Assembly (NCBI RefSeq): GCF_037975245.1 | Contig: NC_092574.1 | Location: forward strand, 884,001 to 948,000 | Reading direction: 5' to 3' | Length of the DNA: 64,000 nucleotides | From: Apostichopus japonicus | Lineage: Eukaryota > Echinodermata > Holothuroidea > Aspidochirotida > Stichopodidae | In this document: positions 14,487 to 59,848 of the stretch, piece after piece | Layout of the letters: each line of letters opens with the position of its first letter | How positions within the stretch are numbered: the stretch's first letter is position 1 | Made by a program: the position numbers and the translations under genes | Notes under the pieces: generated by a model | Database searches by the model: none | What the model saw: the letters and a program-made list of their open reading frames with translations, nothing else | What the model was told of the DNA's origin: nothing

Positions 14487-15229
14487 TTAGAGGATGCAAT
14501 CTCTCCATCCCTGATGAAGTTTGCTGCTCATCTCCTGAACAATATCAATATATGTCGGATCCTGAGCGACGTTGTTATCCTCACTGGGATCGTTTGCCAG
14601 AATGTAGAGCTCACTGGCATGGAGGTCTTCCCAGTCCATTTGGAAGGTAGTGTGATTAAAACCAACCCACTCCGAGTAACGGTAATCGCTGGTCCTCATG
14701 GAGTACCCCATTATGATGATGGTAGCTAGCTTTGGCAGTATGGATCCCTTCTCCGGTTGATCCGATGGTCTGGGGTACTGTGAAATGGTGCAAGTTTTCA
14801 CGTTGGAAATATTCTGTTCTCCGCCCCCAAAGTGAGACTTGATCAACGGGGCCAAGCTTACACCCTCTCTGCAAAGGGTCTCGTTCAAGGAGTCCTCGGG
14901 ACAGAGACTGGGGACCTGTAGACCGGCAAGATCAGACACTGTTGGGAAAAGGTCTACCAATTCTGCAAAGGCATTGCTGGTGGGACCTTGGTCCCTGGGA
15001 CGATACATGTGCTTCTCAGTAGATTCACTGGCAGACATTAATATACCGGATGGCTTCATGGATGTACGAGGTTTGGGTTTGAACTTCAAGGGATGGATGA
15101 GAGGAAACTTCCTTTTGGATCTTACTCCTCGGTCGGTCACTCCAGGGACATGGAAAAGGAGTGGTACGTTGGTGGCATACAGGTAATTTGTGAACTTGGA
15201 AAACTCTGAATGTTCACCAAGCTGCCAAC
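14487..15229 (-). CDS. IDS: IDS terminal coding exon 7 (human exons 8 and 9 fused)
   Basis: 743 coding nt from acceptor TTTTGATAG to stop TAA. It encodes residues 341-587: GWQLGEH, the K352 region, [26 protein letters not shown], and the C-terminal [20 protein letters not shown] block that builds the substrate pocket. In human this stretch is interrupted by an intron; here it is continuous. The protein ends slightly differently from human after [16 protein letters not shown]. No canonical AATAAA was seen close by; an ATTAAA-like word lies at 14008-14013 on this strand. Confidence 0.96.
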
Positions 15230-18200
15230 CTATCAAAAAAAGACAAGGAAAAATAGTTGTTCATAAGAATTCTCCTACGAAGAGCTCCTAACAAGAACAA
15301 AAAATGCAGAACTTATTAGAGTTCGATATCTGTTGAAGTCTTCTTGTTTTGTTGTGTTCCTTCTTTTGTCTCTGAGTATGAAGTTGATCCCCAACAACTG
15401 TCTTTCTGACTGACAACAATTGGACATTTTGATTATTTGTTTCAAGAAAGATACTTGTGTAAACATTCAGAGTAGGATCCCTCTAATGACGTTTTTCAGA
15501 ATTATGAGCGGAAATAGTCAGCCATTTGCTCAATTTGACAGTGGGGTTGACAGACTATACTGAACTTATTCTCATATATTTAAATCATATATATTCTTCA
15601 TGGTTTTGACCAAAGCGTATGCACTGAATCTCACTTAGCTTCATTGACAAGGCAATGAAAGTAAAAACGCTGACGTGGTCAAAAAGAAAAACCCAGCATG
15701 AGTTTAAGGACTTACCATGATCTCCAACAAAGGATATAATTGTGTTATCAGAGAAGCCATACTTGTCTAAGGCAGAAAGGACGCGACCAAGCTGGTAGTC
15801 TGTATACGATACGGAGGAATAGTAGTTCTGGCGAATCAAATACTGTAGAATTAAAAAAGAAAGAAAAATTCTCTTTTTATTTGGGCATTCTTAAACAAAA
15901 TAAAACCAATAGACCAACTGACAACAGCAAAACACAGACAAAACCTAAAAGGCTTCTTATTTCTATCTACAAGGGAAGATATGAGTAGTATTCCAGATTT
16001 TCAGGAGGGCAGTGATAGGCCTAAACTGGATACGGTCTTATTTTCGGATGAGGTTGTCTCAAAGGAGCTGCTTCGTCTAAATGTTTCTAAGGTTCTGGAC
16101 CGGATGCAATCCATCGGTATTCAGTGAAGACTTTTGCACACCATTTCTGCGTTCCACTCTCATTGGTTTTTAGTAAATTTAGGAATGAAGGTTATGTTCC
16201 TAAGGACTGGAGATGTGCTAATATTACCCCAATTTTCAAGAAGGGTGATAAGTCTAAGCCCTGTAATTAAAGCCCTGTTAGTTTCACTAGTGTTGTTTGT
16301 AAGGTCATGGAGTCAATATTGTTAAAAAGTCTACGGTCTGTCACTTCAGTAGTCAGTCTTTGATCAGGGAGTCTCAACATGGCTTTTGTCAAAAAAGGTC
16401 TTGTTTCACTAATATCCTTGAGTTTATGGAAGATGTAACAAGCTCACTAAATAGGCAGAAGTCTGTAGATGTTGTGTTCCTGGATTTCCAGAAGGCCTTC
16501 GATAAAGTTCCCCACCAGCGTCTTTTACTTAGGCTGAAGAGTATGGGTGTCAATGGGAAATTACTGTCTTGGATCGAGAATTGGCTTGGTAATAGGAAAC
16601 AGAGGGTGGTAATCAAAGGCTGTGCTTCTTCTTGGCAGGATGTTACTAGTGGGGTTCCACAAGGGGGTCTGTATTGGGTTCCTTGTTGTTTGTTGTCTAT
16701 ATAAATGATATCCACAGAGATATTTTGTGTACAGCTAAGAAGTTTGCTGATGATACCAAATTGTATTCTGAGGTCTCTTCCAAAGCGATTCTGAGAAGTT
16801 TCAAATGGATTTGGATAAGATTTTTACCTGGTCTCAGAGGTGGCAAATGCTTTTTAATATTGATAAATGCAAGCTAATGCACATTGGTAGTAGTAACCAA
16901 AAGTTTACATACAATCTTAATGGTGTGGAGTTACAGGAGGTCTCTGTTGAAAGAGACCTAGGTATCTACATTGACTCATCTCTGCAACCTTCTAAACGTT
17001 GTGAAGCTGCTAAAAGAGGTAATAGGGTTTTGGGCAGGGGGGGCGATCTGTTTCAAAAATTGGGGGGGGGGGACATTTGCTTGGGTGCAGCTGATAGCAA
17101 CTACATCCCCAAACACGCTTCATAATATTTTGTTTATACACTTATTTCATTAAGGATGCAGTCCGTCTTGTGGGCGCAGATGAGTCTTGGATATAGTGGA
17201 GATGCCTATCTGTTCTCTGATACTATCTAAGGGGAGCGCGACCATTGGTTAGCGCGTAGCGTACAAGAATTTTTTGGGCAAATATACCTCCCAGATCGCC
17301 GGAAATAACACTTCCCAGATCCAATAATGCTCCAAAACCTCCCTAAATTTGAGATCTCATGGCTTAGAAATTTAAGTTGGGGGAAACACATGGGCATCTG
17401 CAGAAAAAAATCAGGGAACAAATAATCCAAGTAAGCTTATGTATAAGATGGGTCTGGATCCTCTCCCAGAAAACAATTATAGACTGCTGCAAATGCGATT
17501 TCCTTCCAAAATTTAACAACTGTGGATAAATGTAATAAAGTGAGAACTGCTGCATGTCATTTGCACAATGCTGGATCAAACTGCGCCAAAGTTCAATACA
17601 GGGGAATCTGCAATGCAGCTATTGGTCAAGACAAATTAGTGGGGACACGGTATATCATGTCCCCACCACTGAAAAAGTTGGTGGGGGTCCCCACCAGGAT
17701 CTGCGCCCATGGTCAGTCTAGCTAATTCATTTCAAAAATAAGTAAGAACTTCTCTTGGTGAAAGTCTGTGTCATTTTTTGGTGATATTTAGTAACAGATT
17801 GTGACTCAGTTAGACATGCGCGTAGCAAGGAATTTGCCAAGGGAGGGGCGAAGCTTGTAGGCAAACTATCTAAGCTTGGCGCCACCATGAGTTGGCACAA
17901 AGCGTAAAAGAAAATTTTGGCCGAAAATGCCTTCCAGATCGCTGGAAATGGCACTTCCCAGGCCATGTAAGTTGCATCTAAGCATTATCTATTTTGAAAT
18001 TACTAGCGATATCATAAAAGGAATATGCTCTTATAGCCACAAAAAAAAACTATGACACCAAATATTGGGGGGATATTAGATACTGTATACCCCCACCTAA
18101 AATATTGGGGGGACATGTCCCCCCAACCCCCCCCCCATGATCCCCGTACATGGTTTTAGGTATAACTTCAGTTTTCTGAAAGAGGACATCATAGTTAGGC

Positions 18201-21200
18201 TTTATAAGCAGTTGGTTAGGCCTCATATGGAGTATGCTGTGCAGGCTTGGAACCCATATTTTGCTAAGGATAAAGAAGTACTTGAAAAGGTCCAGAGGAG
18301 GGCTACTAGGATGATTAGTTCCTTAAAGAGGGTTCCTTATTATAGGCGGTTACAACTGTTGAATCTAACCACACTGGAACTTGGGAAGTTACGTGGGGAT
18401 TTGATCCAGGTTTTCAAGATTGTGTATGGTTTCGAAAAATTATCCTTTACCGACTTTTTCATGTTTGCTAACAGTAGTTGTACCAAAGGTCATTGTCTTA
18501 AACTCCAAAAGTGACATAGTAGGATTAATATTCGGCATTACTTTTCTTCTAATAGGGTTGTGAATGAGTGGAATGGTTTGCCTGAGAATGTTGTACTTGC
18601 AAGTACTGTACGTGTGAATGGGTTTAAGAATGCTTTGGACCAGCACTTTAAGCATTGTAATCGGGTCTGGGTGTTTGTGTCTTCAGTTTTTTTCTCTCTC
18701 TATAGGGTCCTTGATGGGGACTTAAGTGTCCCTCCTGATCCTTTTTTCTACTTAACTAAACTAATCTCCATAGGATTTTCATGAACGTTTTACTCATATC
18801 TCTGCATGTAAATCTTCTATAGTATTTTATCAGGATGCTAATCTATATAAAGATTGCTTGCACTTATTACACACAGATGTTTACCTGATTTATATATTCA
18901 TCTATTATTGGTCTACCGAACACAGTCTATCCCAATAGAGCAACAAAGGAAACATTACCTGGGGAAGGTTAACTATGAATTAATATTTTCATAAACCTAC
19001 TGATTCCATTCTACAGGTTCAAGAGTGTATCATTTCTTTGAAAACTTAGTTGCATTTTCAGAAGGATATAGAAAATGCCAGCTGAATAAGACCAGGGCGA
19101 TGATGAACCATAGGTTAAATAAAAACCGACTTTGAACTTTCCAGGGGGATCCAACACCCCAAATATGAGATTCTTTCAATATTTTATGACTTTTCCCTTT
19201 AGTTGTCAAAAATGACCACTGAACACACACACACTCCCAAGCCCTCTCCATTCAGCTATAGCTATTTTTTACCAAACACTGCCCATGGTAAGTATTAGTA
19301 TTCATGTCTCTTATACTGACATACTATGTAGACTGTTCAAGCTTGGCTTCTTTAGAGGAGCTTGGTATTGAATTACACACCCATGTGAGTTTTTCTGAGT
19401 TACCAACAAACAGTACAGTTTGTCCAGTTTAGTGCTCTATAATTAATATTGTTACTATCAAGTTACTATTAAGTTTTGTATTTTTGGGGTTAAAAAAACA
19501 AGTTAAATGCCTGCCTTAAAATCACACAATATAGAATGACACATATCATTATATAATATTATACGGTTATCACTACACAGAATTGACTCTGAGAACAAAG
19601 CACAACCAAGGCAGCTTAGGCATAGATTAACACAGTGGCGTAGGAGGGGTGGGGTCTAAGGGGAGGGGGTGTCCCCTAACCTTTGGAATTTTTTTTGCAT
19701 TTCCAGGTGGCCTCAGATGCAATTTGGTGCAATATAGCACACTTCAACACCCACTCCATTTTGTTAACTTAATTTTGTATTTTCACCTGGCCTTAGATGC
19801 AATTTGGTGCTCCAAATGAGTTTTCTCATTCGGAAATGAAAAAGGGGTTTTCTGACTTGCGAAGCAGGGGGGCGGAATGATACTTCCGCCCTCCACATTT
19901 TTCACTGGGGGGCTGGTGCCCCCCTGCCCTCTGGTTCCTACGCCCTTGGATTAACAGCAGTCCCATTACAGTATCAAGTACTCTGATGCAGCTTAACAAT
20001 ATAAACAAGAAACATTTAGTACTGTAATACATTCTGAATGAAGCAAAACAAATGTTAATACATGTATCTAAGTTTGTACACTAACATTAAACTAGGTATG
20101 TCCTGGTTCAGTTTACTACAGTCCTCCTCCTGAATAAACTACTTACATGGTAATCTATTGGCATAGGTCCTACTTACATGGTAACCTATTGGCATAGGTC
20201 CTACTTACATGGTAATCTATTGGCATAGGTCCTACTTACATGGTAATCTATTGGCATAGGTTCTACTTACATGGTAATCGATTGGCATAGGTCCTACTTA
20301 CATGGTAATCTATTGGCATAGATTCTACTTACATGGTAATCGATTGGCATAGGTCCTACTTACATGGTAATCTATTGGCATAGGTCCTACCTACATGGTA
20401 ATCTATTGGCATAGGTCTTACTTACATGGTAATCTATTGGCATAGGTCCTACTTACATGGTAATCTATTGGCATAGGTCCTACTTACATGGTAATCTATT
20501 GGCATAGGTCTTACTTACATGGTAATCTATTGGCATAGGTCCTACTTACATGGTAATCTATTGGCATAGGTCCTACTTACATGGTAATCTATTGGCATAG
20601 GTCCTACTTACATGGTAATCTATTGGCATAGGTCCTACTTACATGGTAATCTATTGGCATAGGTTCTACTTACATGGTAATCTATTGGCATAGGTTCTAC
20701 TTACATGGTAATCTATTGGCATAGGTCTTACTTACATGGTAATCTATTGGCATAGGTCCTACTTACATGGTAATCTATTGGCATAGGTTCTACTTACATG
20801 GTAATCTATTGGCATAGGTCCTACTTACATGGTAATCTATTGGCATAGGTCTTACTTACATGGTAATCTATTGGCATAGGTTCTACTTACATGGTAATCT
20901 ATTGGCATAGGTCCTACTTACATGGTAATCTATTGGCATAGGTTCTACTTACATGGTAATCTATTGGCATAGGTTCTACTTACATGGTAATCTATTGGCA
21001 TAGGTCTTACTTACATGGTAATCTATTGGCATAGGTCCTACTTACATGGTAATCTATTGGCATAGGTCCTACTTACATGGTAATCTATTGGCATAGGTCC
21101 TACTTACATGGTAATCTATTGGCATAGGTTCTACTTACATGGTAATCGATTGGCATAGGTCCTACTTACATGGTAATCTATTGGCATAGGTCCTACTTAC

Positions 21201-24200
21201 ATGGTAATCGATTGGCATAGGTCTTACTTACATGGTAATCTATTGGCATAGGTCTTACTTACATGGTAATCTATTGGCATAGGTTCTACTTACATGGTAA
21301 TCTATTGGCATAGGTCCTACTTACATGGTAATCTATTGGCATAGGTCCTACCTACATGGTAATCTATTGGCATAGGTCTTACTTACATGGTAATCTATTG
21401 GCATAGGTCCTACCTACATGGTAATCTATTGGCATAGGTCTTACTTACATGGTAATCTATTGGCATAGGTTCTACTTACATGGTAATCTATTGGCATAGG
21501 TCTTACTTACATGGTAATCTATTGGCATAGGTCCTACTTACATGGTAATCTATTGGCATAGGTCCTACTTACATGGTAATCTATTGGCATAGGTTCTACT
21601 TACATGGTAATCTATTGGCATAGGTTCTACTTACATGGTAATCTATTGGCATAGGTCTTACTTACATGGTAATCTATTGGCATAGGTCCTACTTACATGG
21701 TAATCTATTGGCATAGGTCTTACTTACATGGTAATCTATTGGCATAGGTCCTACTTACATGGTAATCTATTGGCATAGGTCCTACTTACATGGTAATCTA
21801 TTGGCATAGGTCCTACTTACATGGTAATCTATTGGCATAGGTCCTACTTACATGGTAATCTATTGGCATAGGTTCTACTTACATGGTAATCGATTGGCAT
21901 AGGTCCTACTTACATGGTAATCTATTGGCATAGGTCCTACCTACATGGTAATCTATTGGCATAGGTCTTACTTACATGGTAATCTATTGGCATAGGTCTT
22001 ACTTACATGGTAATCTATTGGCATAGGTTCTACTTACATGGTAATCTATTGGCATAGGTCCTACTTACATGGTAATCTATTGGCATAGGTCTTACTTACA
22101 TGGTAATCTATTGGCATAGGTCTTACTTACATGGTAATCTATTGGCATAGGTTCTACTTACATGGTAATCTATTGGCATAGGTCCTACTTACATGGTAAT
22201 CTATTGGCATAGGTCCTACTTACATGGTAATCTATTGGCATAGGTCCTACCTACATGGTAATCTATTGGCATAGGTCTTACTTACATGGTAATCTATTGG
22301 CATAGGTCCTACCTACATGGTAATCTATTGGCATAGGTCTTACTTACATGGTAATCTATTGGCATAGGTCCTACTTACATGGTAATCTATTGGCATAGGT
22401 TCTACTTACATGGTAATCTATTGGCATAGGTTCTACTTACATGGTAATCTATTGGCATAGGTCTTACTTACATGGTAATCTATTGGCATAGGTCCTACTT
22501 ACATGGTAATCTATTGGCATAGGTTCTACTTACATGGTAATCTATTGGCATAGGTTCTACTTACATGGTAATCTATTGGCATAGGTCTTACTTACATGGT
22601 AATCTATTGGCATAGGTTCTACTTACATGGTAATCTATTGGCATAGGTCTTACTTACATGGTAATCTATTGGCATAGGTCTTACTTACATGGTAATCTAT
22701 TGGCATAGGTCTTACTTACATGGTAATCTATTGGCATAGGTTCTACTTACATGGTAATCTATTGGCATAGGTCCTACTTACATGGTAATCTATTGGCATA
22801 GGTCTTACTTACATGGTAATCTATTGGCATAGGTCTTACTTACATGGTAATCTATTGGCATAGGTTCTACTTACATGGTAATCTATTGGCATAGGTCCTA
22901 CTTACATGGTAATCTATTGGCATAGGTCCTACTTACATGGTAATCTATTGGCATAGGTCCTACCTACATGGTAATCTATTGGCATAGGTCTTACTTACAT
23001 GGTAATCTATTGGCATAGGTCCTACCTACATGGTAATCTATTGGCATAGGTCTTACTTACATGGTAATCTATTGGCATAGGTCCTACTTACATGGTAATC
23101 TATTGGCATAGGTCCTACTTACATGGTAATCTATTGGCATAGGTTCTACTTACATGGTAATCTATTGGCATAGGTTCTACTTACATGGTAATCTATTGGC
23201 ATAGGTTTTACTTACATGGTAATCTATTGGCATAGGTCCTACTTACATGGTAATCTATTGGCATAGGTCTTACTTACATGGTAATCTATTGGCATAGGTC
23301 CTACTTACATGGTAATCTATTGGCATAGGTCCTACTTACATGGTAATCTATTGGCATAGGTCCTACTTACATGGTAATCTATTGGCATAGGTCCTACTTA
23401 CATGGTAATCTATTGGCATAGGTTCTACTTACATGGTAATTGATTGGCATAGGTCCTACTTACATGGTAATCTATTGGCATAGGTCCTACCTACATGGTA
23501 ATCTATTGGCATAGGTCTTACTTACATGGTAATCTATTGGCATAGGTCTTACTTACATGGTAATCTATTGGCATAGGTTCTACTTACATGGTAATCTATT
23601 GGCATAGGTCTTACTTACATGGTAATCTATTGGCATAGGTCTTACTTACATGGTAATCTATTGGCATAGGTCCTACCTACATGGTAATCTATTGGCATAG
23701 GTCTTACTTACATGGTAATCTATTGGCATAGGTCCTACTTACATGGTAATCTATTGGCATAGGTCCTACTTACATGGTAATCTATTGGCATAGGTCTTAC
23801 TTACATGGTAATTGATTGGCATAGGTCTTACTTACATGGTAATCTATTGGCATAGGTTCTACTTACATGGTAATCTATTGGCATAGGTCTTACTTACATG
23901 GTAATCTATTGGCATAGGTCTTACTTACATGGTAATCTATTGGCATAGGTCCTACTTACATGGTAATCTATTGGCATAGGTCCTACCTACATGGTAATCT
24001 ATTGGCATAGGTCTTACTTACATGGTAATCTATTGGCATAGGTCCTACCTACATGGTAATCTATTGGCATAGGTCTTACTTACATGGTAATCTATTGGCA
24101 TAGGTCCTACTTACATGGTAATCTATTGGCATAGGTTCTACTTACATGGTAATCTATTGGCATAGGTTCTACTTACATGGTAATCTATTGGCATAGGTCT

Positions 24201-27200
24201 TACTTACATGGTAATCTATTGGCATAGGTCCTACTTACATGGTAATCTATTGGCATAGGTCCTACTTACATGGTAATCTATTGGCATAGGTTCTACTTAC
24301 ATGGTAATCTATTGGCATAGGTTCTACTTACATGGTAATCTATTGGCATAGGTCCTACTTACATGGTAATCTATTGGCATAAGTCCTACTTACATGGTAA
24401 TCTATTGGCATAGGTCTTACTTACATGGTAATCTATTGGCATAGGTCTTACTTACATGGTAATCTATTGGCATAGGTCCTACTTACATGGTAATCTATTG
24501 GCATAGGTTCTACTTACATGGTAATCGATTGGCATAGGTCCTACTTACATGGTAATCGATTGGCATAGGTCCTACCTACATGGTAATCTATTGGCATAGG
24601 TCTTACTTACATGGTAATCTATTGGCATAGGTTCTACTTACATGGTAATCTATTGGCATAGGTCCTACTTACATGGTAATCTATTGGCATAGGTCTTACT
24701 TACATGGTAATCTATTGGCATAGGTCTTACTTACATGGTAATCTATTGGCATAGGTTCTACTTACATGGTAATCTATTGGCATAGGTCCTACTTACATGG
24801 TAATCTATTGGATAGGTTCTACTTACATGGTAATCTATTGGCATAGGTCCTACTTACATGGTAATCTATTGGCATAGGTCCTACTTACATGGTAATCTAT
24901 TGGCATAGGTTCTACTTACATGGTAATCTATTGGCATAGGTTCTACTTACATGGTAATCTATTGGAATAGGTCCTACTTACATGGTAATCTATTGGCATA
25001 GGTCTTACTTACATGGTAATCTATTGGCATAGGTCCTACTTACATGGTAATCTATTGGCATAGGTCCTACTTACATGGTAATCTATTGGAATAGGTTCTA
25101 CTTACATGGTAATCTATTGGAATAGGTCCTACTTACATGGTAATCTATTGGAATAGGTTCTACTTACATGGTAATCTATTGGCATAGGTCCTACTTACAT
25201 GGTAATCTATTGGCATAGGTCCTACTTACATGGTAATCTATTGGCATAGGTCCTACTTACATGGTAATCTATTGGCATAGGTCCTACTTACATGGTAATC
25301 TATTGGCATAGGTCTTACTTACATGGTAATCTATTGGCATAGGTCTTACTTACATGGTAATCTATTGGCATAGGTCTTACTTACATGGTAATCTATTGGC
25401 ATAGGTCCTACTTACATGGTAATCTATTGGCATAGGTCCTACTTACATGGTAATCTATTGGCATAGGTCCTACTTACATGGTAATCTATTGGCATAGGTC
25501 CTACTTACATGGTAATCTATTGGCATAGGTCCTACTTACATGGTAATCTATTGGCATAGGTCCTACTTACATGGTAATCTATTGGCATAGGTCCTACTTA
25601 CATGGTAATCTATTGGCATAGGTCCTACTTACATGGTAATCTATTGGCATAGGTCCTACTTACATGGTAATCTATTGGCATAGGTCCTACTTACATGGTA
25701 ATCTATTGGCATAGGTCCTACTTACATGGTAATCTATTGGCATAGGTCCTACTTACATGGTAATCTATTGGCATAGGTCCTACTTACATGGTAATCTATT
25801 GGCATAGGTCCTACTTACATGGTAATCTATTGGCATAGGTCCTACTTACATGGTAATCTATTGGCATAGGTTCTACTTACATGGTAATCTATTGGCATAG
25901 GTCCATACGGGAAGCTAAGATTAAGCCCAGCAATGTCCTCATAGTTATCCAGGGTTGATAGATAAGGTGCATAAGCCACTGAGGGTAATTCAGAGGGTAA
26001 ATCTTTGTCCTTTGCAATTTGAATAGAATCAAGTGGGTACAAAGTCTTAAACTCCTCTGGGTATTTGTAAGGAACGTGAGGTTTACGAAAACCAAGGCCG
26101 ACGAAGAATGGTTCCTGCATGGTTTGGTTTTCTCCAAAGAAGTCCACATAGGGGGCTCCGTCATAGATGTTCTTTAGTAAATTCACGGCATAGTCTGCAT
26201 TTTGGATGTCTGGTAAAGTCCCTTCTGGTTGTGTCTTAAGGTCAACAGGGCACAGCAAATTATGTTTCTTACCCTCTGGAGTTATGCAGACCTAAACAAG
26301 AACAGACCCATTGGATTAGAGAAACAAACATGTGATAATACCATCCTGGGTTGAATGCCTGTGGTTAGGTTAGTGTTATAATACACACCAAAGCCAATGG
26401 TATTCAGTGTAAAACTAAATCTTCCAACACTGTATGCAACATTACCATTTACATAATAACGTTATACAGAACTTCAATGTGTATGTGCCATAGTACATTT
26501 ACTATGTCATAATACCATTCTGGGTAACATGGCCTTCTTCAAGTTAGCATAATTATGATATGCATCAGTGCCGATATCATTCACTGTATAACTATAGCTA
26601 ATTCTTCTAATACATGCAATATTGATATTTACAGAAATAACATTAAAAACCTCCATGTTTATGTGCCATAGTAAAGTTACTATGTCATAATACCATTCTG
26701 GGTAACATGGCCTTCTTCAAGTTAGCATAATTATGATATGCATCAGTGCCGATATCATTCACTGTATAACTATAGCTAATTCTTCTAATACATGCAATAT
26801 TGATATTTACAGAAATAACATTAAAAACCTCCATGTTATGTGCCATAGTACATTTACTATGTCATAATACCATTCTGGGTAACATGGCCTTCTTTAAGTC
26901 AGCATAATTATGATATGCATCACTGCCGATATTATTCACTATATAACTGTAGCTAATTCTTTAAATACATGCAATATTGATATTTACAGAAATAACATCT
27001 TTCATGTTTATGTGCCATAGTTAAATTTACTATGTCATAATGCCCTTCCCGGTTTGCATGGCTGTTAATTTAATTAGCATTACACTACCAAGCAGTGCCT
27101 TACATTACTCAGTGTACGACTGTATCTATTAATTCTTCCACTGGTAATTTTTGTCAACAGTACACACAATATCCATTTATTCTGCCTAAATATTAACTTT

Positions 27201-30200
27201 AGGCAGAAGTTTCATGCTTATGTGCCATAGTACAAGTGTTCAGTTTCATACAATGAAGGGTAACACTGAGCTGTATAGTATGTATGTACATACAAACTAT
27301 GTATACAAACTATGTACACAAACTATGTATCCAAACTACATGCAAACTATGTAAACAAATTATGTAAACAAACTATGTATGCAAACTATGTATGCAAACT
27401 ATGTATGCAAACTATGTATACAAATTATGTATGCAAATTATGTCTACAAATTTTGTATACAAACTATGTTTACAAACTATGTATGCAAACTATATACTAT
27501 GTATGCAAGCTATGTATACAAACTATGTATGCAAACTGTATTTGCAAACTATGCATACAAACTATGTACACAAACATGTGAAAACTAAAACCCTGTGTAA
27601 AGACGAAAATACCTTTGAAGTAATATACTGCTCTGTGGATGGCCAGTAGTTTGGTATGGACCAACTGTAAGGGTAATCAAATGAACCATTGGATGATATA
27701 CCTGCAACAGGAAAAGTCATATATACCTTAAAAAGATTGATAGGTGACACATGTCTTATAAGCATTACAGCACTGGAAAGTAGCATCAATTTACTAAAGT
27801 GTATGAAGGTAACACCTGCTCATTACACAGCAATTCTTGTTTTAAATCATTTTGACAAAAGTTTCTCATCAAATGTTTCACCAACTGGTTGCATTGTTTC
27901 AAAACCAAGTATTAATTTGTAAGAAATATCAGTTAATGTGTGACTGGCAAATCAAGTGTATATTATAACAGATCATAGTTTTTTTCCCTTTCAAATTCTG
28001 TAATGCTGCACAAAGCTTGCCTTAACTACTTAAGTTAAGATGTATGTGTAAGTGTACTTAATACCAAGCAATATCATATTATGTTTCATAATTTTATCCT
28101 AACAGGTGTTGAATATATTCATGAAGTTTAGCTTATCATTTCTTGGCTAAGAGAAAAAATAACAATTTGTGTTCATAAATCAATATACATATTTATAACA
28201 ATTTACTTTTGTCATCTTTCTGGCTCTTCGGTTAGCAACATTTTTGTGTGTGTATATTTACCCATATGAAAGACTTTACCGACTCCAGCAGAGAAATAAC
28301 CTTGTTCCTTGAAATATTGAGGGAGGGTGGTATAATTTCCGGCAGCCTTTCTCCAGTAAGAACCAAAATCATAAAGTCGAGTGGTGTCCGGGCGACGTCC
28401 TGTCAGGAAAGACACCCTGCTAGGAGCACACACTGCTTGCTGTAAGAAGAATGAACATATTGACTTGTTGTGTTCCTATACACTCTTGACTGTCTCCAGG
28501 AGAATTCCATCCATTTACTTTGCAAACATTTGGGACTTATTATTACATTATCATGGTAACATTATTTTATTATGACTAAAGTTTTCCTTCACAGTACACT
28601 CCCTTGTATCAAACTTTTTGTAACCTTTTTTTGAGAAACTAAATTATTTCTATATAAGAATACCTCACTATCTTGTTTCAAGTGATTAATTTTGGCAAAA
28701 AGGAAGAAACTTGTTAAGCACTAGCATCCATGTAAACACAGACCCTTCTTCGCACAATCACCACTGATAATGTAGATACAGAGCTCAGATCTGCAATGTA
28801 TGTACAAATCATTTGTCACTTTAAGGTTTACATGTCACTACTAGGACAGACATCTTCCTACAGAGGTTGCCGGAATGAAACAACAAAACAGGCCAAGTGG
28901 CTGCGCCAACAAGTTTAATCAAGTTGTAATTTCCTTGAAGGATAACCTGATTGAGAAAGTATTTGCCACCTCAGCTAAGACCTTCCTATTACAAAAGTCA
29001 TCATAACCTCAGTCCTCAGCAGAATGATGATCAGCAACATTGTAAAGTACTGAAGGATACAAACAAAAGCCTAGACTAGAAACAGATTAATGGGATCTGA
29101 ATGGAAACGACAGACCTAGGGCAAACATGATACATTAAGGCCAATGGCTATTCTACTGCCATGGTGAACGGAGGAGATATTACCTATAGGGATGCTATTT
29201 TTTAAATAATCATGTAGAAGCCATCATAATGATCTTCTCTCATGATTCAGTTTGTAATACAAGTCTCTCTACATGATAAACATCTGATCAATGAAATCTA
29301 AGGAAGAAAAAAAACCACATATACACTGTTACATTACATTATACGTCACATTGCGTAACACTTGTAAACAAGGAATCCATTTAACGCTTTATTTACCAAA
29401 ATAAACTGCGCAGGAGGTTTTCACAAAGTATCAAATGACTGTGGTGGCATTATTTGATAATGGGGTCGGGAAAACAGTGACATAGATGAGCAGACAAATA
29501 CCAAACAGGGTATTAATATATGTGCTTAATTTTCATATGCCAAAGAGTTGTGACAATCTGGAGTATGGTCTAAGGAATTAAGCATTAATTAACCCACATT
29601 TCAAATTGTTGTCCAGGGATGAGACTGAGCCGAGAAAAAAAAATCTGAAATTTATCGATCGCCGTCCTGGGGGAGGGGTTTAAGGAGAGGGGGTTCCCCC
29701 TCCCCTTTAGAAATTTTTTGTAAGGTAAGGAGGGCTTAGATGCAAAATGGTGGACTCTAGATGGAATCTATCACATCACGTAACTCGCCAAAAAAGTGTG
29801 GAATTTCTGCTTGTATAATTTATCCATTAGCTTTTTTGAACCAAAAAAAGGCTTTTTTGCTTGCTTTGTGCTACTTGATTCCACCACTGGTCAAATTCGG
29901 TGTTCCTTCCCTTCACAGTCCAGCATGTTCGGCAAAAAAAATAAAAAAATAAAAAAAATAAAATAAAAATAAATAAATAATTATAATAAAAAACGCGAAT
30001 TACGAGAAAAAACGCGAAAATGAAAAAAAAAAATCGGAAATCCGCGTTTCCGCGGAAGAGTCTCATGCCTGGTTGTCATGTTGGGCTTCAGCATCACTGA
30101 AGTTGTTTAAATCTAAGAATTCAGGCCTAAAATCAATTGTAGTAGGTTTGTTGAAACAGTGTAACAGATGCAGTGTTGGTTGATTCTGTACAGTGTACGG

Positions 30201-32121
30201 TGTGGAGACCTGTATTATATGATGTTCGCTAAGCCAGTTTTTAATGCTATGTTATATTTGATCTCACTGCAACACTAACATTGGTTTACCGGGTGTTTTT
30301 TGTTTTGGTGAACCATACATGCAATAATACCATCAAACATAATTACACCAGGCATCATCGGAAAAATAAAAGTAGCATGAGTTCACAAAGCCAACTTTGT
30401 GTCTGTGTTGACTTCATGTCTAAAGTGACTGCCTAAATTGACTCACCTGAACATGAGCATTGGTAAATCTCATAGACTTGCTGGCTAACTGGTCAATATT
30501 TGGAGACACAATATCCTCCCCATAGCAACCAAGCTTTGGCCTCAAGTCATCAATAACAATGAACAGGACATTTGGTCTACCACCTGACAAAAAAGGGCAT
30601 TTCAAAAACCATGTGTTAATTTTCAAACAAAATACTACTTGGAATATAATGACTTTGAGAAGCTACGTGAACATTTAGAAAGAAAAATATGTAACCGTAC
30701 AGAATGCAGAGAATAATTTAGTATTGAAAGTTTGTGTACAGTTTTCAAGGTTCTGGAAACTGTCTCTTATAAAATACTATGGTTTTGTGAAAGACAAACT
30801 GCTATACCACTTGGTACTTGTACAAACTTGTACAACAGTTTGCCCAGTTCTGGAATCTGTCTCTTATAAAATACTGTGGCTTTGTGAAAGACAAACTGCT
30901 ATACAACTTGGTACTTGTACAACAGTCTCTTATAAAATACTATGGTTTTGTGAAAGACAATCTGCTATACAAATTGGTACTTGTACAACAGTTTGCCCAT
31001 TTTGCATAGCATATAAAATACTATGGTTTTGTGAAAGACAAACTGCTATACAACTTGGTACTTGTACAACAGTTTGCCCATTTTGCATAGCATCTTGCAA
31101 TTCCATACCGGTAAATTGATTCCCTGCGATGCAATGACCAGTGGCTGTATATTATACAATATTACAGTACAATATTGATTCCAAATAAATATTAAACAGT
31201 AGCTCAGATCCCTGGTATTCAAACTTTTTGCTTGAAGGCCCCAATTTTCACCTTCATCATCTTGGCGACCATCCTGTGACAGATGTTGCGACCCCCAATT
31301 TAGATACCAGAGGGCTAGATGACACTGGCAACCCATTATTTATATACCAAGGGGCTAGACGACACTGGCGACCCCATATTTAGATACAAAGGGGCTAGAC
31401 GACACTGGCGACCCCCAATTTAGATACCAGAGGGCTAGACGACACTGGCAACCCATTATTTATATACCAAGGGGCTAGACGACACTGGCGACCCCCAATT
31501 GAGATACCAAGGGGCTAGACGACACTGGCGACACCCAATTTAGATACCAAGGGGCTAGACGACACTGGAGACACCCAATTAAAATACCAAGGGGCTAGAC
31601 GACACTGGCGACCCCCAATTGAGATACCAAGGGGCTAGACGACACTGGCGACCCCCAATTGAGATACCAAGGGGCTAGACGACACTGGCGACCCCCAATT
31701 GAGATACCAAGGGGCTAGACGACACTGGCGACCCCATATTTAGATACAAAGGGGCTAGATGACACTGGCAACCCCCAATTTAGATACCGAGGGGCTAGAA
31801 GACGCTGGCGACCCCCAATTTAGATACCAAGGGGCTAGACGACACTGGCAACCCCCAATTTAAAAGACCAAGGGGGGGGGGTAGATGACACTGCAAATGT
31901 AATACAATTGTGAAACTATTACCTGTTCTGCCAGTGGAATCTATTCCCTTTCTTTGCAAAATGATACTATATACATTAATGGCTATTACTGACTAAGAAC
32001 AGTTTAGGGAATTCCTTTACGGATAACTACTGAAGAAATTACCATTCTTTGCTCGTTTTGAAGATGCATGACAAAAAGTCACAACTAGAAGAGCAAAGAG
32101 TTGAAAGAGTCTGGACTTCAT
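14487..32121 (-). CDS. IDS: Iduronate-2-sulfatase, whole gene (7 coding exons)
   Basis: Lysosomal sulfatase that removes 2-O-sulfate from iduronate ends of heparan and dermatan sulfate. The CDS is the join of 32121-32043, 30583-30447, 28439-28262, 27701-27613, 26291-25881, 15842-15716 and 15229-14487: 1,764 nt, 587 residues plus stop (human about 550). Every junction is GT-AG and phases agree. Seen: an N-terminal hydrophobic leader; metal ligands D38 and D39; the CAPSR motif with C76, the residue converted to formylglycine in this family; K127 and H130 (GKVFH); H233 (KPH); D339 and H340 (GDHG); K352; and a C-terminal [11 protein letters not shown] block. Potential N-glycosylation sites include NYT, NGS and NLS. 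All key residues are intact, so the gene looks functional. Introns hold a large minisatellite, a LINE and small transposons. A residual risk is unseen 5' non-coding exons. Confidence 0.96.
15716..15842 (-). CDS. IDS: IDS coding exon 6 (human exon 7)
   Basis: 127 nt, the same length as human exon 7, with acceptor TTCTACAG and donor CATG|GTAAGT. It encodes residues 299-341, [18 protein letters not shown] and [10 protein letters not shown]339 and H340 of GDHG are the metal and active-site residues of the family. It is separated from exon 5 by a 10-kb intron. Confidence 0.96.
16360..17029 (+). pseudogene. Reverse transcriptase, N-terminal and catalytic part of the CR1-like LINE
   Basis: The first frame (16360-16704) covers RT fingers and palm with [10 protein letters not shown] and GVPQGG. 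The frame is lost just after GVPQGG. A second frame (16674) resumes with [10 protein letters not shown] and the catalytic FADDTKLY, and a third (16805) carries the thumb with [11 protein letters not shown]. At least two frameshifts separate these parts, so no active enzyme is made. It breaks at the nested insertion. Confidence 0.85.
17034..18151. mobile_element. Nested insertion inside the CR1-like LINE (hAT-like repeat sequence)
   Basis: The LINE frame stops at ...NRVLG and resumes at NFSFLKED across about 1.1 kb. The insertion is flanked by GGTTTTGG (17026-17033) and GGTTTTAG (18152-18159), a 7/8 match that fits an aged 8-bp target duplication. G/C-rich ends contain GGGGGGACAT words in inverse orientation. 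The right part (17813-18018) is a reverse-strand relative of the MITE at 51378-51660. The end (18050-18150) matches 54160-54260. Probably a composite of non-autonomous hAT-type elements. Confidence 0.6.
18160..18660 (+). pseudogene. Reverse transcriptase C-terminal part of the CR1-like LINE
   Basis: The frame continues the LINE after the nested insertion with [44 protein letters not shown] and [15 protein letters not shown] stop after LKLQK is followed, in another frame, by [14 protein letters not shown] and FKNALDQHF, the usual end of CR1-type ORF2. It is inactive because of the stop and shift. Confidence 0.85.
19633..19948. mobile_element. hAT-like MITE, 316 bp, with 8-bp target duplication
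   Basis: The ends are CAGTGGCGTAGGA and the complement of CAAGGGCGTAGGA (11 of 13 match). Perfect 8-bp direct repeats GATTAACA flank it at 19625-19632 and 19949-19956. 8-bp duplications and CAG-type ends are typical of hAT elements. It has no transposase, so it is non-autonomous. It lies in the IDS intron just 3' (in transcript sense) of the 31-bp array. Confidence 0.85.
20140..25904 (-). repeat. 31-bp minisatellite made of IDS exon-5 end plus its 5' splice site
   Basis: The array is 5,765 bp. In transcript sense each unit is GGACCTATGCCAATAGATTA-type exon sequence (24 nt, encoding GPMPIDYH) followed by GTAAGTA, the first 7 nt of the intron. The first unit (25904-25874) is the real exon end and donor. 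186 units of 31 bp would be 5,766 bp, and one unit near 24811 lacks a single base, which explains the length exactly. Variants are mostly C/T transitions at two positions before the exon part, a TCTATT/TCGATT site, and about a dozen copies with donor GTAGGT instead of GTAAGT. A run of about 15 identical units lies at 25400-25860, nearest the exon. After the last unit the native intron continues as GTTTATTCAGG. Confidence 0.97.
25881..26291 (-). CDS. IDS: IDS coding exon 5 (fusion of human exons 5 and 6)
   Basis: 411 nt, residues 162-298. It carries LLCPVD, EGTLPD, the KPH motif (H233) and [11 protein letters not shown] at its end. In human the same coding stretch is two exons (201 and 171 nt from memory); here no intron separates them. 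An extra loop of about 13 residues near 203-220 ([11 protein letters not shown]) accounts for the extra length. The donor CAT|GTAAGTA is the first unit of the 31-bp array: the last 24 nt of this exon lie inside the repeat. Confidence 0.96.
26300..27250. repeat. Degenerate tandem array, about 177-bp unit, in IDS intron 4
   Basis: The marker TGTGCCATAG recurs at about 26484, 26662, 26839, 27011 and 27221 (spacings 178, 177, 172, 210). The middle copies are nearly identical across the stretch containing ACCATTCTGGGTAACATGG and GCATAATTATGATATGC; the outer copies are diverged. Confidence 0.88.
27277..27577. repeat. 12-bp minisatellite (CAAACTATGTAT) in IDS intron 4
   Basis: About 25 imperfect copies of CAAACTATGTAT. 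It produces overlapping low-complexity frames reading [13 protein letters not shown], which are repeat artefacts rather than genes. Confidence 0.92.
27613..27701 (-). CDS. IDS: IDS coding exon 4
   Basis: 89 nt, equal to human exon 4, encoding residues 132-161 with the conserved block [13 protein letters not shown]. The acceptor is TGTTGCAG and the donor is AAAG|GTATTT. A 12-bp tandem array begins about 35 nt after the donor, in the following intron. Confidence 0.95.
28262..28439 (-). CDS. IDS: IDS coding exon 3: formylglycine cysteine motif
   Basis: 178 nt, as in human exon 3. It begins [20 protein letters not shown], and C76 of CAPSR is the sulfatase catalytic formylglycine precursor. GKVFH (K127, H130) follows. 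NYT is a likely conserved glycosylation site. The acceptor is TTACAG and the donor is ATGG|GTAAAT. Confidence 0.97.
29614..30071. mobile_element. hAT-like non-autonomous element in IDS intron 2
   Basis: 458 bp with ends CAGGGATGAGACT and the complement of CAGGCATGAGACT (one mismatch in 13). A direct repeat GTTGTC flanks it (29608-29613 and 30072-30077); six bases match, shorter than the 8 expected for hAT. The inside includes a GGGGGAGGGG block and an A-rich tract at 29932-30030. No transposase was found. Confidence 0.7.
30447..30583 (-). CDS. IDS: IDS coding exon 2: metal-binding Asp pair
   Basis: 137 nt between acceptor TTGTCAG and donor CAG|GTGAGT. It encodes residues 27-72, including [17 protein letters not shown] and SPNIDQLA. 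The DD pair binds the active-site calcium in sulfatases. Its length equals that of human IDS exon 2. Confidence 0.96.
30731..31092. repeat. Four-copy tandem repeat in IDS intron 1
   Basis: The block CTTATAAAATACTATGG, AAGACAAACTGCTATAC, TTGGTACTTGTACAACAG recurs four times with uneven spacing (about 97, 66 and 83 bp) because a spacer (TTTGCCCAG...) is present in some copies and absent in others. Confidence 0.88.
31281..31892. repeat. 40-bp minisatellite in IDS intron 1
   Basis: About 15 copies of a 40-bp unit with GACGACACTGGCGACCCCCA and ATTTAGATACCAAGGGGCTA. The spacing is exactly 40 bp over the central part (for example GAGATACCAA at 31621 and 31661). A G-run at 31872-31881 marks the decayed last copy. 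Confidence 0.92.
32043..32121 (-). CDS. IDS: IDS coding exon 1: start and signal peptide
   Basis: This exon is too short for a typical ORF search. It starts with ATG and encodes [20 protein letters not shown]..., a basic residue followed by a hydrophobic core, as expected for a lysosomal enzyme leader. It ends AATG|GTAATT after one base of codon 27, which matches the phase of exon 2. The human exon 1 also ends in phase 1. No other nearby minus-strand ATG gives both a leader and the correct phase. Confidence 0.88.
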
Positions 32122-35094: not shown

Positions 35095-35690
35095 ATGTTC
35101 AGTAATCAGGGCAAGTTTACACACTTAGAACAGACTATCGTAAATATGCCAAACTTTTGTTTCATAGCCCTACAGGAAACAAAGATTCAAAAATACGTAT
35201 GTCAGTCATGGAACGACGAGATCCCACAACACTTGGTCACCGATGAGGCCTTACAACTGGAGAATTTCTATATGTTTCGCTATGACAGGGAGTACTCGGC
35301 AAATGGTGGAGGTCTAATAACTTATGTTTCTAAAGAATGGGCTATTTGCCGCCCCAAAGTATCTGTAACCTTATCAACGCCGGACATTGAGCTACTGGCT
35401 GTGAGTGCCCGTCCCCGTTTTTTGCCGAGTGGTGCAAGCAGTATCATCATTGTCAACATTTATACCCGTCCTACCCTGTACATCAAATTTTCCAGTTGCC
35501 GATGCAGAGATGAAGAAGGCACTAACAAAAATTTTGAAAAACAACCCACGATCTAACGTCATCATTTTAGGGGGCATCAACAGAAACAGAATTCCTCTCC
35601 TTGAGACTATGGGCTACAAAAACCTTGTCAACTTCATCACATCCAAGATCACAGGCTACTTTGGATGCTGTGTATGTCAAAGACGATAAC
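35095..35690 (+). pseudogene. LINE apurinic-type endonuclease domain
   Basis: The first frame (35095-35556) has FIALQETKI, MFRYDREYSANGGGLITYV, ELLAVSARP and IIIVNIYTRP, which are strands of the endonuclease/exonuclease/phosphatase fold of LINEs. The frame shifts near 35480 and continues as SNVIILGGINRN (usual form GDFN) at about 35555. Later catalytic motifs (SDH) are visible only in other frames near 35725. Confidence 0.8.
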
Positions 35691-36340
35691 TACTGTACCA
35701 AGCTAGGAAACTACATTCCATAGCCACATCTGACCATATCAGCATATGCGTCATACCAAAGTACACAGAGAAACATCGCCTGTTCCAAAAGAAGACGAGA
35801 ATAAGGGAGAGGGACATTAGTAAGAACAATATCAAGAACTTAAGAGAAATGTTGGACTCAACTGACTGCCAGAGTATTTTTACAGAAAACTGTAATACCT
35901 TGCATGAGCTAACTGAAGTGGTTTCATGTTACATTAACTTCACAAGTGATATGCATCCCACATAAGATTATATCTGCCTCGGAGATGATGAAGAGATTAC
36001 CAGCAGATGAGACAATAAAGAAATTAGAAAGGGAGAAGATGAAAGCAATCGAAACTGGTGATACTACAAAGAGAAACAGCTTTCAAGAAAAATCAATAAG
36101 CACGTACTGTACACAAAAATAGATCTATATATTTAGAGAAAGTTACCTCAAATTCTAATTCTCTGTGGAGCCTGCTAAACTCTATTAGCAAACCCGGTGA
36201 CCATCACAAAAACTTGATATCTAGTGAACTTGGAGTTGAATTAAATGAACATTTTGGATGTTTTAACAGTGCTGTTAATAAGGATGTTAATTTGATCTTA
36301 CCAGAAAGAACTTATGATATACCTGTAGTTTTTGTAAAGA

Positions 36341-37780
36341 ATGAAGGAAGTTAACAAATATTTTAGCCTGGTTAAAAGTGGAATTGCCTCAGGTTTCGAC
36401 AACATCTCGTGGTGGGTTTTCAAATATTGTTCTGAAGAACTGTCAAGTATTTTTGCAACTATTTTTAATAGAAGTATTAATGAGAGTCTGATTCCATCTT
36501 CGTGGAAACATGCTAAAACGTCGCCTGTTCCTAAAACAGGTAATCCCATTTCAGTTAAAGACTATAGACCAATAGATATTTCAAGTATTGGATTTAACTG
36601 CATGCAGAAAATTCTACTCTCATACATAATGCAGTCTGTCATTGAACATGGAGACAACAATCAATTTGCCTACAAAAAGGGAGTTTCATGCATTGATGCC
36701 ATACTTGCTCTTGTACATGACATTGTTTCGGGGCTAAATCAGAAAGACACAACATTGTCAAAAGTCCTTTTCTTAGATTTTTCAAGCGCATTTAATACGG
36801 TATTGCCTAATCGCCTAATTCAAGATCTATGTAGCTTTATTGAAGAACCATGGCTTATTCATTGGCTTGCAAACTTTGTACAAGGCTGGTCTAGGCAAGT
36901 GAAATTACAGAAGGGATTTTCTTCTAAATCGGATATTAAAATTGGCGTTCCTCAAGGGGGTCTCTATCGGCTCTACTTTTCACCGTTTACACGGATGAGA
37001 AACGCTCAGGTTCCAACTGCAATGTTATTAAGTATGCAGATGATACTGCTGTTTCCTGCAGAATCAGTACAAGCACACACAGTAAAGATCAAGATGATTA
37101 TCAGAACTTTATTTCTAGATTTGTTAGCTTGTGTGAGCAGAAAAATCTCATTTTGATCCAAATAAATCAAAAGAAATCTTGTTTGAAAATATAAATGTTA
37201 AGCACAAAGGTTTAATGATGTTAAAGAACAGAGAACTTTAAATCAGGGCTCGTGCGTTGAACGTTCCTCTAGCACTATGCATCTAGGAGTGTGCATTGAC
37301 GATAAGTTAACTTTTACAAATCATATCTCGAAAATGTTAGCTAAAGTGTATAAATATTGTTTCTACAAATTAGCATTCACTGTCCCATACTTTTCCAGTG
37401 ATACAATAGAAAGGGTGTTTGCGGCGTCTGTCTTGCCGATCCTAGTATATGCGGTTCCAGTGTGGTATCATTTTGTACACGTTAAAGATAAGAGAAGAAT
37501 AAGACGTTTTCTTAAATTTTGTTCAAAAATTTTCAGGCTTAATTATGAGAATCTTGTACATAGAGTCAATGAATCTGCTAGGAATGAATTTATACGAGTT
37601 GTCAAAAATATTCAAACTTCTAAAGAACATCCTCTACATTCCAAGCTCAACTCTCTGTGCACTAAAACAAATTATAATTTGAGAAATCCAAATATCACGC
37701 CATCTTTTAGAATTAAACTCTTTAAGAACTCGTTTATTTACAGAGCAGCCATTTTTGTACAAAATGGCTCCTTACAGTAG
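36341..37780 (+). pseudogene. LINE reverse transcriptase
   Basis: 36341-37156 carries KDYRPIDISS, QFAYKKG, VLFLDFSSAFNTV and GVPQGG. It then shifts frame, so the catalytic YADDT (about 37034) is in another frame, and a further shift follows near 37150. 37277-37780 carries the thumb and connection region (HLGVCIDDKLTFTNHI, RVFAASVLPILVYAVPVW) up to a natural stop. It is inactive because of at least two frameshifts. Confidence 0.85.
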
Positions 37781-49714: not shown

Positions 49715-49865
49715 CTACAAGGACAAAAGTGAGAGAAAACAACTTAATTAGTCAAAGGCGATTGTAATTAATGCAGGAGCGGCTAAACCAGGTTTCTTAT
49801 GATGTCAATACTGGAAGTGTCCACTTGTGATAGATAAACTGCTGCAGCTTTTCAATTTGATTATA

Positions 49866-51377
49866 CCACATAATCTAGTGGCCATTCACGCTACAACCTT
49901 TTACGTACTGTATTAGGTATGCTGTTTAGTCCACCCAGCTACCAGGCAGAGGAGGAGCTACCACATAATCTAGTGGCCATTCACACTACAACCTTTTACA
50001 TACTGTACTAGGTATGCTGTTTAGTCCACCCAGCTACCAGGCACAGGAGGAGCTACCACATAATCTAGTGGCCATTCACGCTACAACCTTTTATGTACTG
50101 TACTTTGTATGCTGTTTAATCCACCCAGCTACCAGGCAGAGGAGGAGCTACCACATAATCTAGTGGCCATTCACACTACAACCTTTTACATACTGTACTA
50201 GGTATGCTGTTTAGTCCACCCAGCTACCAGGCACAGGAGGAGCTACCACAAAATCTAGTGGCCATTCACACTACAACCTTTTACATACTGTACTAGGTAT
50301 GCTGTTTAGTCCACCCAGCTACCAGGCAGAGGAGGAGCTACCACATAATCTAGTGGCCATTCACACTACAACCTTTTACATACTGTACTAGGTATGCTGT
50401 TTAGTCCACCCAGCTACCAGGCACAGGAGGAGCTACCACATAATCTAGTGGCCATTCACACTACAACCTTTTACGTACTGTACTTTGTATGCTGTTTAAT
50501 CCACCCAGCTACCAGGCAGAGGAGGAGCTACCACATAATCTAGTGGCCATTCACACTACAACCTTTTACGTACTGTACTAGGTATGCTGTTTAGTCCACC
50601 CAGCTACCAGGCAGAGGAGGAGCTACCACAAAATCTAGTGGCCATTCACACTACAACCTTTCACATACTGTACTAGGTATGCTGTTTAGTCCACCCAGCT
50701 ACCAGGCAGAGGAGGAGCTACCACAAAATCTAGTGGCCATTCACACTACAACCTTTTACATACTGTACTAGGTATGCTGTTTAGTCCACCCAGCTACCAG
50801 GCAGAGGAGGAGCTACCACATCATCTAGTGGCCATTCACACTACAACCTTTTACATACTGTACTAGGTACATGCTGTTTAGTCCACCCAGCTACCAGGCA
50901 GAGGAGGAGCTACCACAAAATCTAGTGGCCATTCACACTACAACCTTTTACATACTGTACTAGGTATGCTGTTTAGTCCACCCAGCTACCAGGCAGAGGA
51001 GGAGCTACCACAAAATCTAGTGGCCATTCACACTACAACCTTTTACATACTGTACTAGGTATGCTGTTTAGTCCACCCAGCTACCAGGCAGAGGAGAAGC
51101 TACCACATAATCTAGTGGCCATTCACACTACAACCTTTTACATACTGTACTAGGTATGCTGTTTAGTCCACCCAGCTACCAGGCAGAGGAGAAGCTACCA
51201 CATAATCTAGTGGCCATTCACACTACAACCTTTTACATACTGTACTAGGTATGCTGTTTAGTCCACCCAGCTACCAGGCAGAGGAGGAGCTTCCACATAA
51301 TCTAGTGGCCATTCACACTACAACCTATTACATACTGTTCTTTGCATGCTGTTTAGTCCACCCAGCTACCAGGGAGA
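49866..51377. repeat. 95-bp tandem array, 16 copies
   Basis: CCACATAATCTAGTGGCCAT recurs every 95 bp (49866, 49961, 50056, 50151 and on); one copy near 50865 has 3 extra bases. Each unit also has TACTGTACTAGGTATGCTG and CCACCCAGCTACCAGGCAGA. The last copy is split by the MITE at 51378. The array lies just upstream (in transcript sense) of the JPT-like exon. Confidence 0.95.
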
Positions 51378-59570: not shown

Positions 59571-59587
59571 ACAAATTGTGAAATTCT

Positions 59588-59848
59588 AGGGCTAGATCAT
59601 TTATTACACTACTTACTGTACTCCTGTTAGTCCTATACTAGGGCTGGATCATTTATTACACTACTTACTGTACTCCTGTTAGTCCTATACTAGGGCTGGA
59701 TCATTTATTACACTACGTACTGTACTCCTGTTAGTCCTATTCTAGGGCTGGATCATTTATTACACTACTTACTGTACTCCTGTTAGTCCTATACTAGGGC
59801 TGGATCATTTATTACACTACTTACTGTACTCCTGTTAGTCCTAAACAC
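59588..59848. repeat. 52-bp tandem repeat, five copies
   Basis: GGGCTGGATCATTTATTACA starts at 59590, 59641, 59693, 59745 and 59797, followed each time by CTTACTGTACTCCTGTTAGT. Copies differ at only a few positions. Confidence 0.95.

Follow-up and report, generated by a model that had tools for sequence, protein, structure and literature searches.

Minisatellites that span an exon-intron boundary have been described in amphioxus under the name of "mirages", and have been reported in Adh3, in the troponin C gene, in the globin genes BflGb6 and BflGb9 and in PGBD5 (PMC3087553, PMC3902484). According to the first of these reports, reverse transcription polymerase chain reaction, together with the data on Adh3, suggests that regular splicing is undisturbed (PMC3087553). 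As for human duplicated genes, the published account ties 27 intron modifications to tandem repeats at exon-intron boundaries, the repeats of that study having on average units of 30 base pairs (bp) repeated four times (PMC2812944), and both bodies of work suggest that new introns may arise from boundary arrays (PMC3087553, PMC2812944). Among the matches listed in searches of the open-access literature, no boundary repeat of an echinoderm came up. The case described here belongs to the sea cucumber Apostichopus japonicus and lies in a 64,000-nucleotide (nt) stretch of contig NC_092574.1 (positions 884,001 to 948,000; hereafter, the window, to which coordinates refer unless a contig is named), where the 5' splice site (donor) closing exon 5 of the iduronate-2-sulfatase gene (IDS) is the first of 186 tandem copies. 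A first-pass annotation, made on the bare sequence of the window, had regarded this array as a donor-site satellite without a described counterpart of such a size; that nothing comparable is on record finds no support in view of the amphioxus and human cases (PMC3087553, PMC3902484, PMC2812944).

The array at the donor of IDS exon 5

Tandem Repeats Finder disclosed a single array at positions 20139-25904, with a period of 31, 186.0 copies, 96% matches and a score of 10664, which was then read unit by unit on the minus strand, i.e., the strand of the gene. Each unit is composed of 24 exonic and 7 intronic nt; the first one reads GGACCTATGCCAATAGATTACCAT followed by GTAAGTA, where GGACCTATGCCAATAGATTACCAT represents the last 24 coding nt of exon 5 (eight codons, GPMPIDYH) and GTAAGTA (25874-25880) the 5' splice site of intron 5. 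Copy 1 is made up of the exon end and of this donor, and copies 2-186 are embedded in intron 5, so that the intronic part of the array (20139-25880) harbors 185 additional donors, referred to as decoys. The tail of exon 5 and unit 2 are identical at 23 of 24 nt. The unit-by-unit reading bears out what had been noticed at first, that is, a unit formed by the end of exon 5 plus GTAAGTA and repeated about 186 times; the start previously assigned to the array (20140) was right to within 1 nt but not exact, and exon 6 begins at 15842.

The GT dinucleotide is kept in all the 186 donors, 173 of which read CATGTAAGT and 13 CATGTAGGT, with cores GTAAGT (173/186) and GTAGGT (13/186), respectively. The donors were counted separately from the listing of the units, which runs to 185 entries, two units being contained in a single entry. 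Most of the variation between units is concentrated at positions 1 and 2, where an A is present in 50 and 41, respectively, of the 183 full-length units; in the exon, an A at these positions would change the Gly codon to Arg or Glu, and the exon copy stays GGA. One base is absent from one unit, and the unit variants are irregularly ordered along the array. When 161 bases across the far edge of the array were searched against the same genome (671,581,487 bases in 35 contigs), all the 83 matches fell in this array, on contig C14, one candidate region only being scored. The genome is presumably the published A. japonicus assembly, which was obtained from PacBio HiFi reads with a mean length of 14.7 kb (PMC10344927). 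Such reads are longer than the array and this, together with the irregular order of the unit variants, argues against an assembly artefact. In the mitochondrial contig, AAA occupies positions of expected Asn, ATA those of Ile and AGA those of Ser, which corresponds to an echinoderm-type code; the gene order is cox1-nad4L-cox2...cob...nad1-nad2-16S, with the protein genes between cox1 and cob and the nad1-nad2-16S block sharing a strand and nad6 lying opposite. An amphioxus origin was discarded on these grounds; the GFP family, sought as an amphioxus marker, had no match here, but neither had it in the control genomes, so that its absence carries no information.

The identification of the gene as IDS was confirmed by phmmer, exon 5 matching chains 6ioz and 5fql (E ~2e-28), even though a Pfam scan of exon 5 alone retrieved no family. 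Using human IDS as a query, tblastn located six exons in the expected order on the minus strand, and did not find the first (signal-peptide) exon; the exon borders were read on the sequence. These exons are an upstream exon (30447-30583), an exon (28262-28439) containing CAPSR, which we take to be the sulfatase signature, a further exon (27613-27701), exon 5 (25881-26291), exon 6 (15716-15842, 127 nt) and the last exon found, open to a TAA (14487-15229). Exon 5, as defined by its open frame, acceptor and donor, is 411 nt long (137 codons, phase 0 at the 3' end) and shares 43% identity with residues 170-293 of human IDS. Intron 5 (15843-25880, acceptor TTTCTTTCTTTTTTAATTCTACAG) is about 10.0 kb long, and about 5.7 kb of it are occupied by the array. 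Since all six exons have normal borders and fitting phases through to the TAA, the gene looks functional. Joining copy 1 to exon 6 gives a product collinear with human IDS (IDYH/YLIRQ versus VDFQ/RKIRQ); this homology supports copy 1 as the putative true donor, and its use would follow from the collinearity of the protein and the integrity of the gene. One IDS paralog is present on the same contig (C14:12849041, 58% identical), whose exon 5 ends with GPMPDEYH and CAT/GTAATT and has no array at that boundary.

As far as the reading frame is concerned, an open mRNA is obtained from copy 1 only, and each of the 185 decoys (185/185) would lead to a premature stop. The use of donor copy 2, which adds 31 nt, would reach a stop in exon 6, and for copies 3-186 the stop is located inside the insert (184/184), in agreement with the earlier frame analysis; on translation, the TAG corresponds to nt 37-39 past the true donor.

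Other repeats surround the array. A 13-bp minisatellite of 23 copies (27290-27579) begins about 33 nt past the donor of the IDS exon at 27701-27613, giving IDS a second intron with an array at its 5' end, and a 178-bp repeat of 3.3 copies (26470-27048) is located in the intron that immediately precedes exon 5. Within intron 5, reverse-transcriptase-like open frames at 16303-17125 and 18101-18514, on the plus strand and hence antisense to IDS, were recognized by eye as fragments of long interspersed nuclear elements (LINEs).

Donor-anchored arrays elsewhere in the genome

Donor arrays are also present at other genes of this genome, and the IDS array is not alone. The survey of donor-motif arrays relied on five pattern listings, dominated by contigs C1-C5, and distinct arrays were counted among the matches listed. 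When the whole genome was searched for CAGGTAAGT repeated three times in tandem, 57 matches belonging to six arrays were obtained, against 40 matches for the reversed motif; one of the six starts inside an exon of KRI1, and the other five have no exon support. In the KRI1 array, EDKELNRWVSLRKTTQYR is directly followed by GTAAGT, the 54-bp unit is present in 27 copies, and the exon tail is the same as the next unit at 32 of 34 nt. On the whole, at least 37 further distinct donor-motif arrays were recognized; the array of IDS is excluded from this number because its motif differs. The first donor follows a Pfam-supported frame, either directly or via a near-identical paralog, in 11 of these 37 arrays, a recurrence at several unrelated genes that is also a feature of mirages. 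The genes in question are KRI1, Saf4/YJU2, SPT16, an M18 aminopeptidase (two copies), an amino-acid transporter (two copies), a glycosyltransferase 21 (GT21), TIL, a protein tyrosine phosphatase and GDA1/CD39, those of KRI1 and SPT16 being identified by phmmer as well.

In several of them, the exon tail is contained in the repeat almost unchanged: 18/18 nt at YJU2, 27/27 at SPT16, 22/24 at the amino-acid transporter, 31/33 at GT21, 15/16 at TIL and 32/33 at GDA1/CD39. The automatic comparison was weak or failed for four arrays (L020, 4/6; L021, 2/3, with a wrong period; L024, 3/5; L025, 3/4), and in L074 just 8 exonic nt are shared. Where the comparison is clear, exonic sequence makes up a fraction of 0.2 to 0.9 of the unit. 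At GDA1/CD39 a 47-bp unit is present 89 times, at YJU2 a 39-bp unit 30 times and at the phosphatase gene a 45-bp unit 14.5 times; the motif is not present in every copy, GGTRAGT occurring 12 times at YJU2 and 88 times at GDA1/CD39. The two transporter genes are about 42 kb apart and, since both of them carry an array, the array is probably older than their duplication. The M18 aminopeptidase exon is likewise found in two copies about 116 kb apart (L020 and L120, with arrays from C4:22562828 and C4:22678739), each followed by a donor-anchored repeat, and in L095 the repeat is a composite one, with interruptions along several kb.

The frequency of real exons in front of these arrays was compared with that in front of single-copy donor motifs. 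For the 37 arrays, 31 peptides preceding the first donor were scanned against Pfam, two arrays (L022 and L120) were included as near-identical paralogs of scanned ones, and four (L013, L027, L075 and L077) were too short; the frames were picked and trimmed by eye in the first scans and taken as the longest ones in the later scans. No Pfam support was obtained in the scans of L006-L010, L014-L017, L019, L024-L026, L028, L072, L073, L076, L078, L079, L119, L121 and L122. Through phmmer, L025 matched serine palmitoyltransferase 1, and was left out of the count because single sites were not tested by phmmer; L026 and L028 had no PDB match in the same kind of search. The control consisted of the first 60 non-tandem, plus-strand occurrences of AGGTRAGT, all of them on C1 within one 1.7-Mb stretch; 42 were scanned, 4 were near-identical to scanned ones and 14 were too short. 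Seven of the 60 had Pfam support at E <= 1e-3 (two of the seven lying in one Nup205-like gene), and five of the seven were above the curated cut-off. At E <= 1e-3, the comparison is 11/37 arrays, among the matches listed, against 7/60 single sites (p 0.033), and becomes 9/35 against 7/55 (p 0.16) once paralogs and one repeated family are collapsed. With the curated cut-offs the values are 11/37 against 5/60 (p 0.0099) and, collapsed, 9/35 against 5/55 (p 0.042). All these figures are biased in favor of the arrays, whose frames were chosen partly by eye and extended beyond the 360 nt of upstream sequence to which the single sites were limited.

As a class, donor motifs in tandem show no consistent excess over the reversed ones, the numbers of matches (not of arrays) for the five patterns being 57 versus 40, 512 versus 261, 343 versus 422, 286 versus 447 and 522 versus 269. 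Both edges of the seven minisatellite-like arrays of the reversed motif among the matches listed were examined, and none of them spans a recognizable exon end. One of these seven control arrays (L087, C2:11682700-11683950, 39 bp) starts 7 nt past the donor, GTCAGT, that closes a PDZ exon, for which the Pfam E value is 7e-4, just below the Pfam cut-off; L087 might suggest that arrays may favor intron starts even when the unit contains no exon sequence.

A polarity of the arrays, with the units near the exon closer to the exon copy, was also considered and is not claimed, the array-wide rank correlation at IDS being nil (rho -0.08, p 0.29). Nineteen of the first 24 IDS decoys are exact copies, a number attained in 5 of the 185 circular shifts, and the correlations elsewhere are -0.39 (p 0.049) at KRI1, -0.05 (p 0.63) at GDA1/CD39 and -0.45 (p 0.17) at YJU2.

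The remainder of the window is also rich in minisatellites, with a 95-bp repeat of 15.9 copies and 96% matches (49864-51377) and further tandem repeats at 31288-31875 (40 bp, 14.7 copies) and 59586-59843 (52 bp, 5 copies). Open frames resembling LINE endonuclease and reverse transcriptase were seen by eye on the plus strand at 35095-37780, and an Rfam scan of the 64-kb window returned nothing at gathering scores. Outside the window, a 31-kb contig (C29:14745-31219) contains pieces of cox1 on the minus strand, possibly being misassembled or duplicated mitochondrial DNA.

Decoy donors and competing explanations

It is likely that the IDS array is a minisatellite born at the exon-intron boundary, belonging to a recurring mirage-like class in this genome, and that it is tolerated through the exon-proximal donor and spliced out. 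A small tandem duplication across the exon 5/intron 5 boundary would have started the minisatellite, which might have grown to 186 copies via slippage or unequal exchange. Through exon definition, the exon-proximal donor would be coupled over exon 5 to the acceptor preceding it, and the array as a whole might leave the transcript together with the 10-kb intron 5, its decoys being tolerated and not used. Some observations weigh against this scenario. Nothing was recognized in the unit that would single out copy 1, other than its position at the end of a 411-nt exon preceded by an acceptor. The predicted probability of the donor 9-mer being unpaired averages 0.41 at copy 1, against 0.33-0.53 over copies 2-9, and no structural hiding of decoys was seen in the predicted folding of copies 1-9 and 91; the donor motif being mostly the same too, the equality between decoys and real site, already remarked in the first-pass annotation, holds. 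In vitro, moreover, when an identical 5' splice site is present in duplicate and U1 is plentiful, the choice often falls on the copy nearer the intron. Lastly, 66% of the human intron modifications are reported to occur also with repeat-retaining transcripts (PMC2812944), so that boundary repeats are not always silent.

A different explanation would have the decoys often used and most IDS transcripts mis-spliced and destroyed, the length of the array tuning the IDS output, as in a hypomorphic allele for which the paralog perhaps compensates. A strong loss of this kind would be costly at KRI1 and SPT16, which carry similar arrays and are presumably essential genes, and the exons of IDS retain intact frames. 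The same donor 9-mer at 173/186 sites, none of the folded ones being hidden, the premature stop that every decoy would cause, and the presence of a second IDS-like gene speak for it, as do the human boundary repeats, described as often accompanied by alternative transcripts (PMC2812944); amphioxus mirages, on the contrary, are reported without any disturbance of splicing (PMC3087553). On balance, transcript loss on this scale appears unlikely. A similarly low probability is assigned to the idea that the birth of arrays is not random and is targeted to 5' splice sites through a link with transcription or splicing (e.g., R-loops or U1 occupancy). The excess of Pfam-supported frames before the arrays listed (p 0.033; p 0.0099 and, collapsed, 0.042 at curated cut-offs) would agree with such a targeting, and so would the control-motif array next to the PDZ-exon donor. 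However, the excess fades at E <= 1e-3 after collapsing (p 0.16), the sampling leans toward the arrays (frames by eye, longer upstream reading, single sites from one 1.7-Mb stretch), the donor motifs do not consistently outnumber the reversed one in tandem, and an exonic share of 0.2-0.9 is what random duplication would be expected to produce.

A selected role, with the array acting as a U1 platform against premature cleavage of the 10-kb intron, or as a transcription enhancer, is very improbable. The many near-consensus U1 sites, all of them with GT, might be invoked in its favor; nevertheless, most of the other positions of the unit are as invariant as the GT core, so that homogenization explains the conservation of GT, and the paralog has no array. 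In addition, the array contains neither AATAAA nor ATTAAA, and a single AATAAA is present in intron 5, near its 3' end, so that U1 buffering or a block to premature polyadenylation, which had been put forward at first, is neither demanded nor contradicted by the sequence and found no support here. The birth of minisatellites in a repeat-rich genome, with boundary hits being tolerated, fits the data, donors being hit perhaps somewhat above chance. The broader picture, in which donor-anchored minisatellites with up to ~90-190 intact decoys each are widespread over many genes of this genome, a strict exon-proximal "first donor" rule prevails over 185 equal or near-equal competitors, and arrays form preferentially at donors, is to be considered as tentative, and the odds are somewhat against it.

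Comparison with described boundary repeats

Most studies of how one of several equal 5' splice sites is chosen have placed two sites in competition. The value of these loci lies in a natural experiment on donor choice among identical sites: they form a natural set of constructs in which the donor is repeated from about 6 (SPT16) to 186 (IDS) times right after a real exon, in genes of known function and with donor spacings from about 28 to 77 bp, and they extend boundary minisatellites to an echinoderm.

The array of IDS recalls closely spaced (tandem) alternative 5' splice sites, since several usable donors are placed in a row; those cases involve few sites, whereas IDS has 185 decoys, each of which abolishes the reading frame. 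It is also similar to ordinary intronic minisatellites in the length of the unit, the homogenized copies and the mixture of unit variants, but, unlike them, its unit contains the coding sequence of the host gene and a splice donor. The human boundary repeats, as described, are likewise minisatellites located at exon-intron boundaries with units of about 30 bp on average; they differ in having four repeats on average, in being often associated with alternative transcripts or new introns, and in occurring in recent paralogs within segmental duplications (PMC2812944). Finally, in structure the IDS array corresponds to an amphioxus mirage: the tandem units are of minisatellite size (31 bp, 186 copies, 96% matches), the unit holds the exon end together with the splice signal, and the real exon copy is placed at the edge of the array, as in the published descriptions. 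Mirages are further marked by length instability between alleles or tissues and by regular splicing, for which, at IDS, the collinearity of the product with human IDS gives indirect support. The differences concern the host, which is an echinoderm, the number of copies, 186 against the 3 and 6 units reported for BflGb6 haplotypes, and the unit, 31 bp against the 150-160 bp reported for BflGb6, 157 bp for BflGb9 and 10-72 bp for Adh3 (PMC3087553, PMC3902484).

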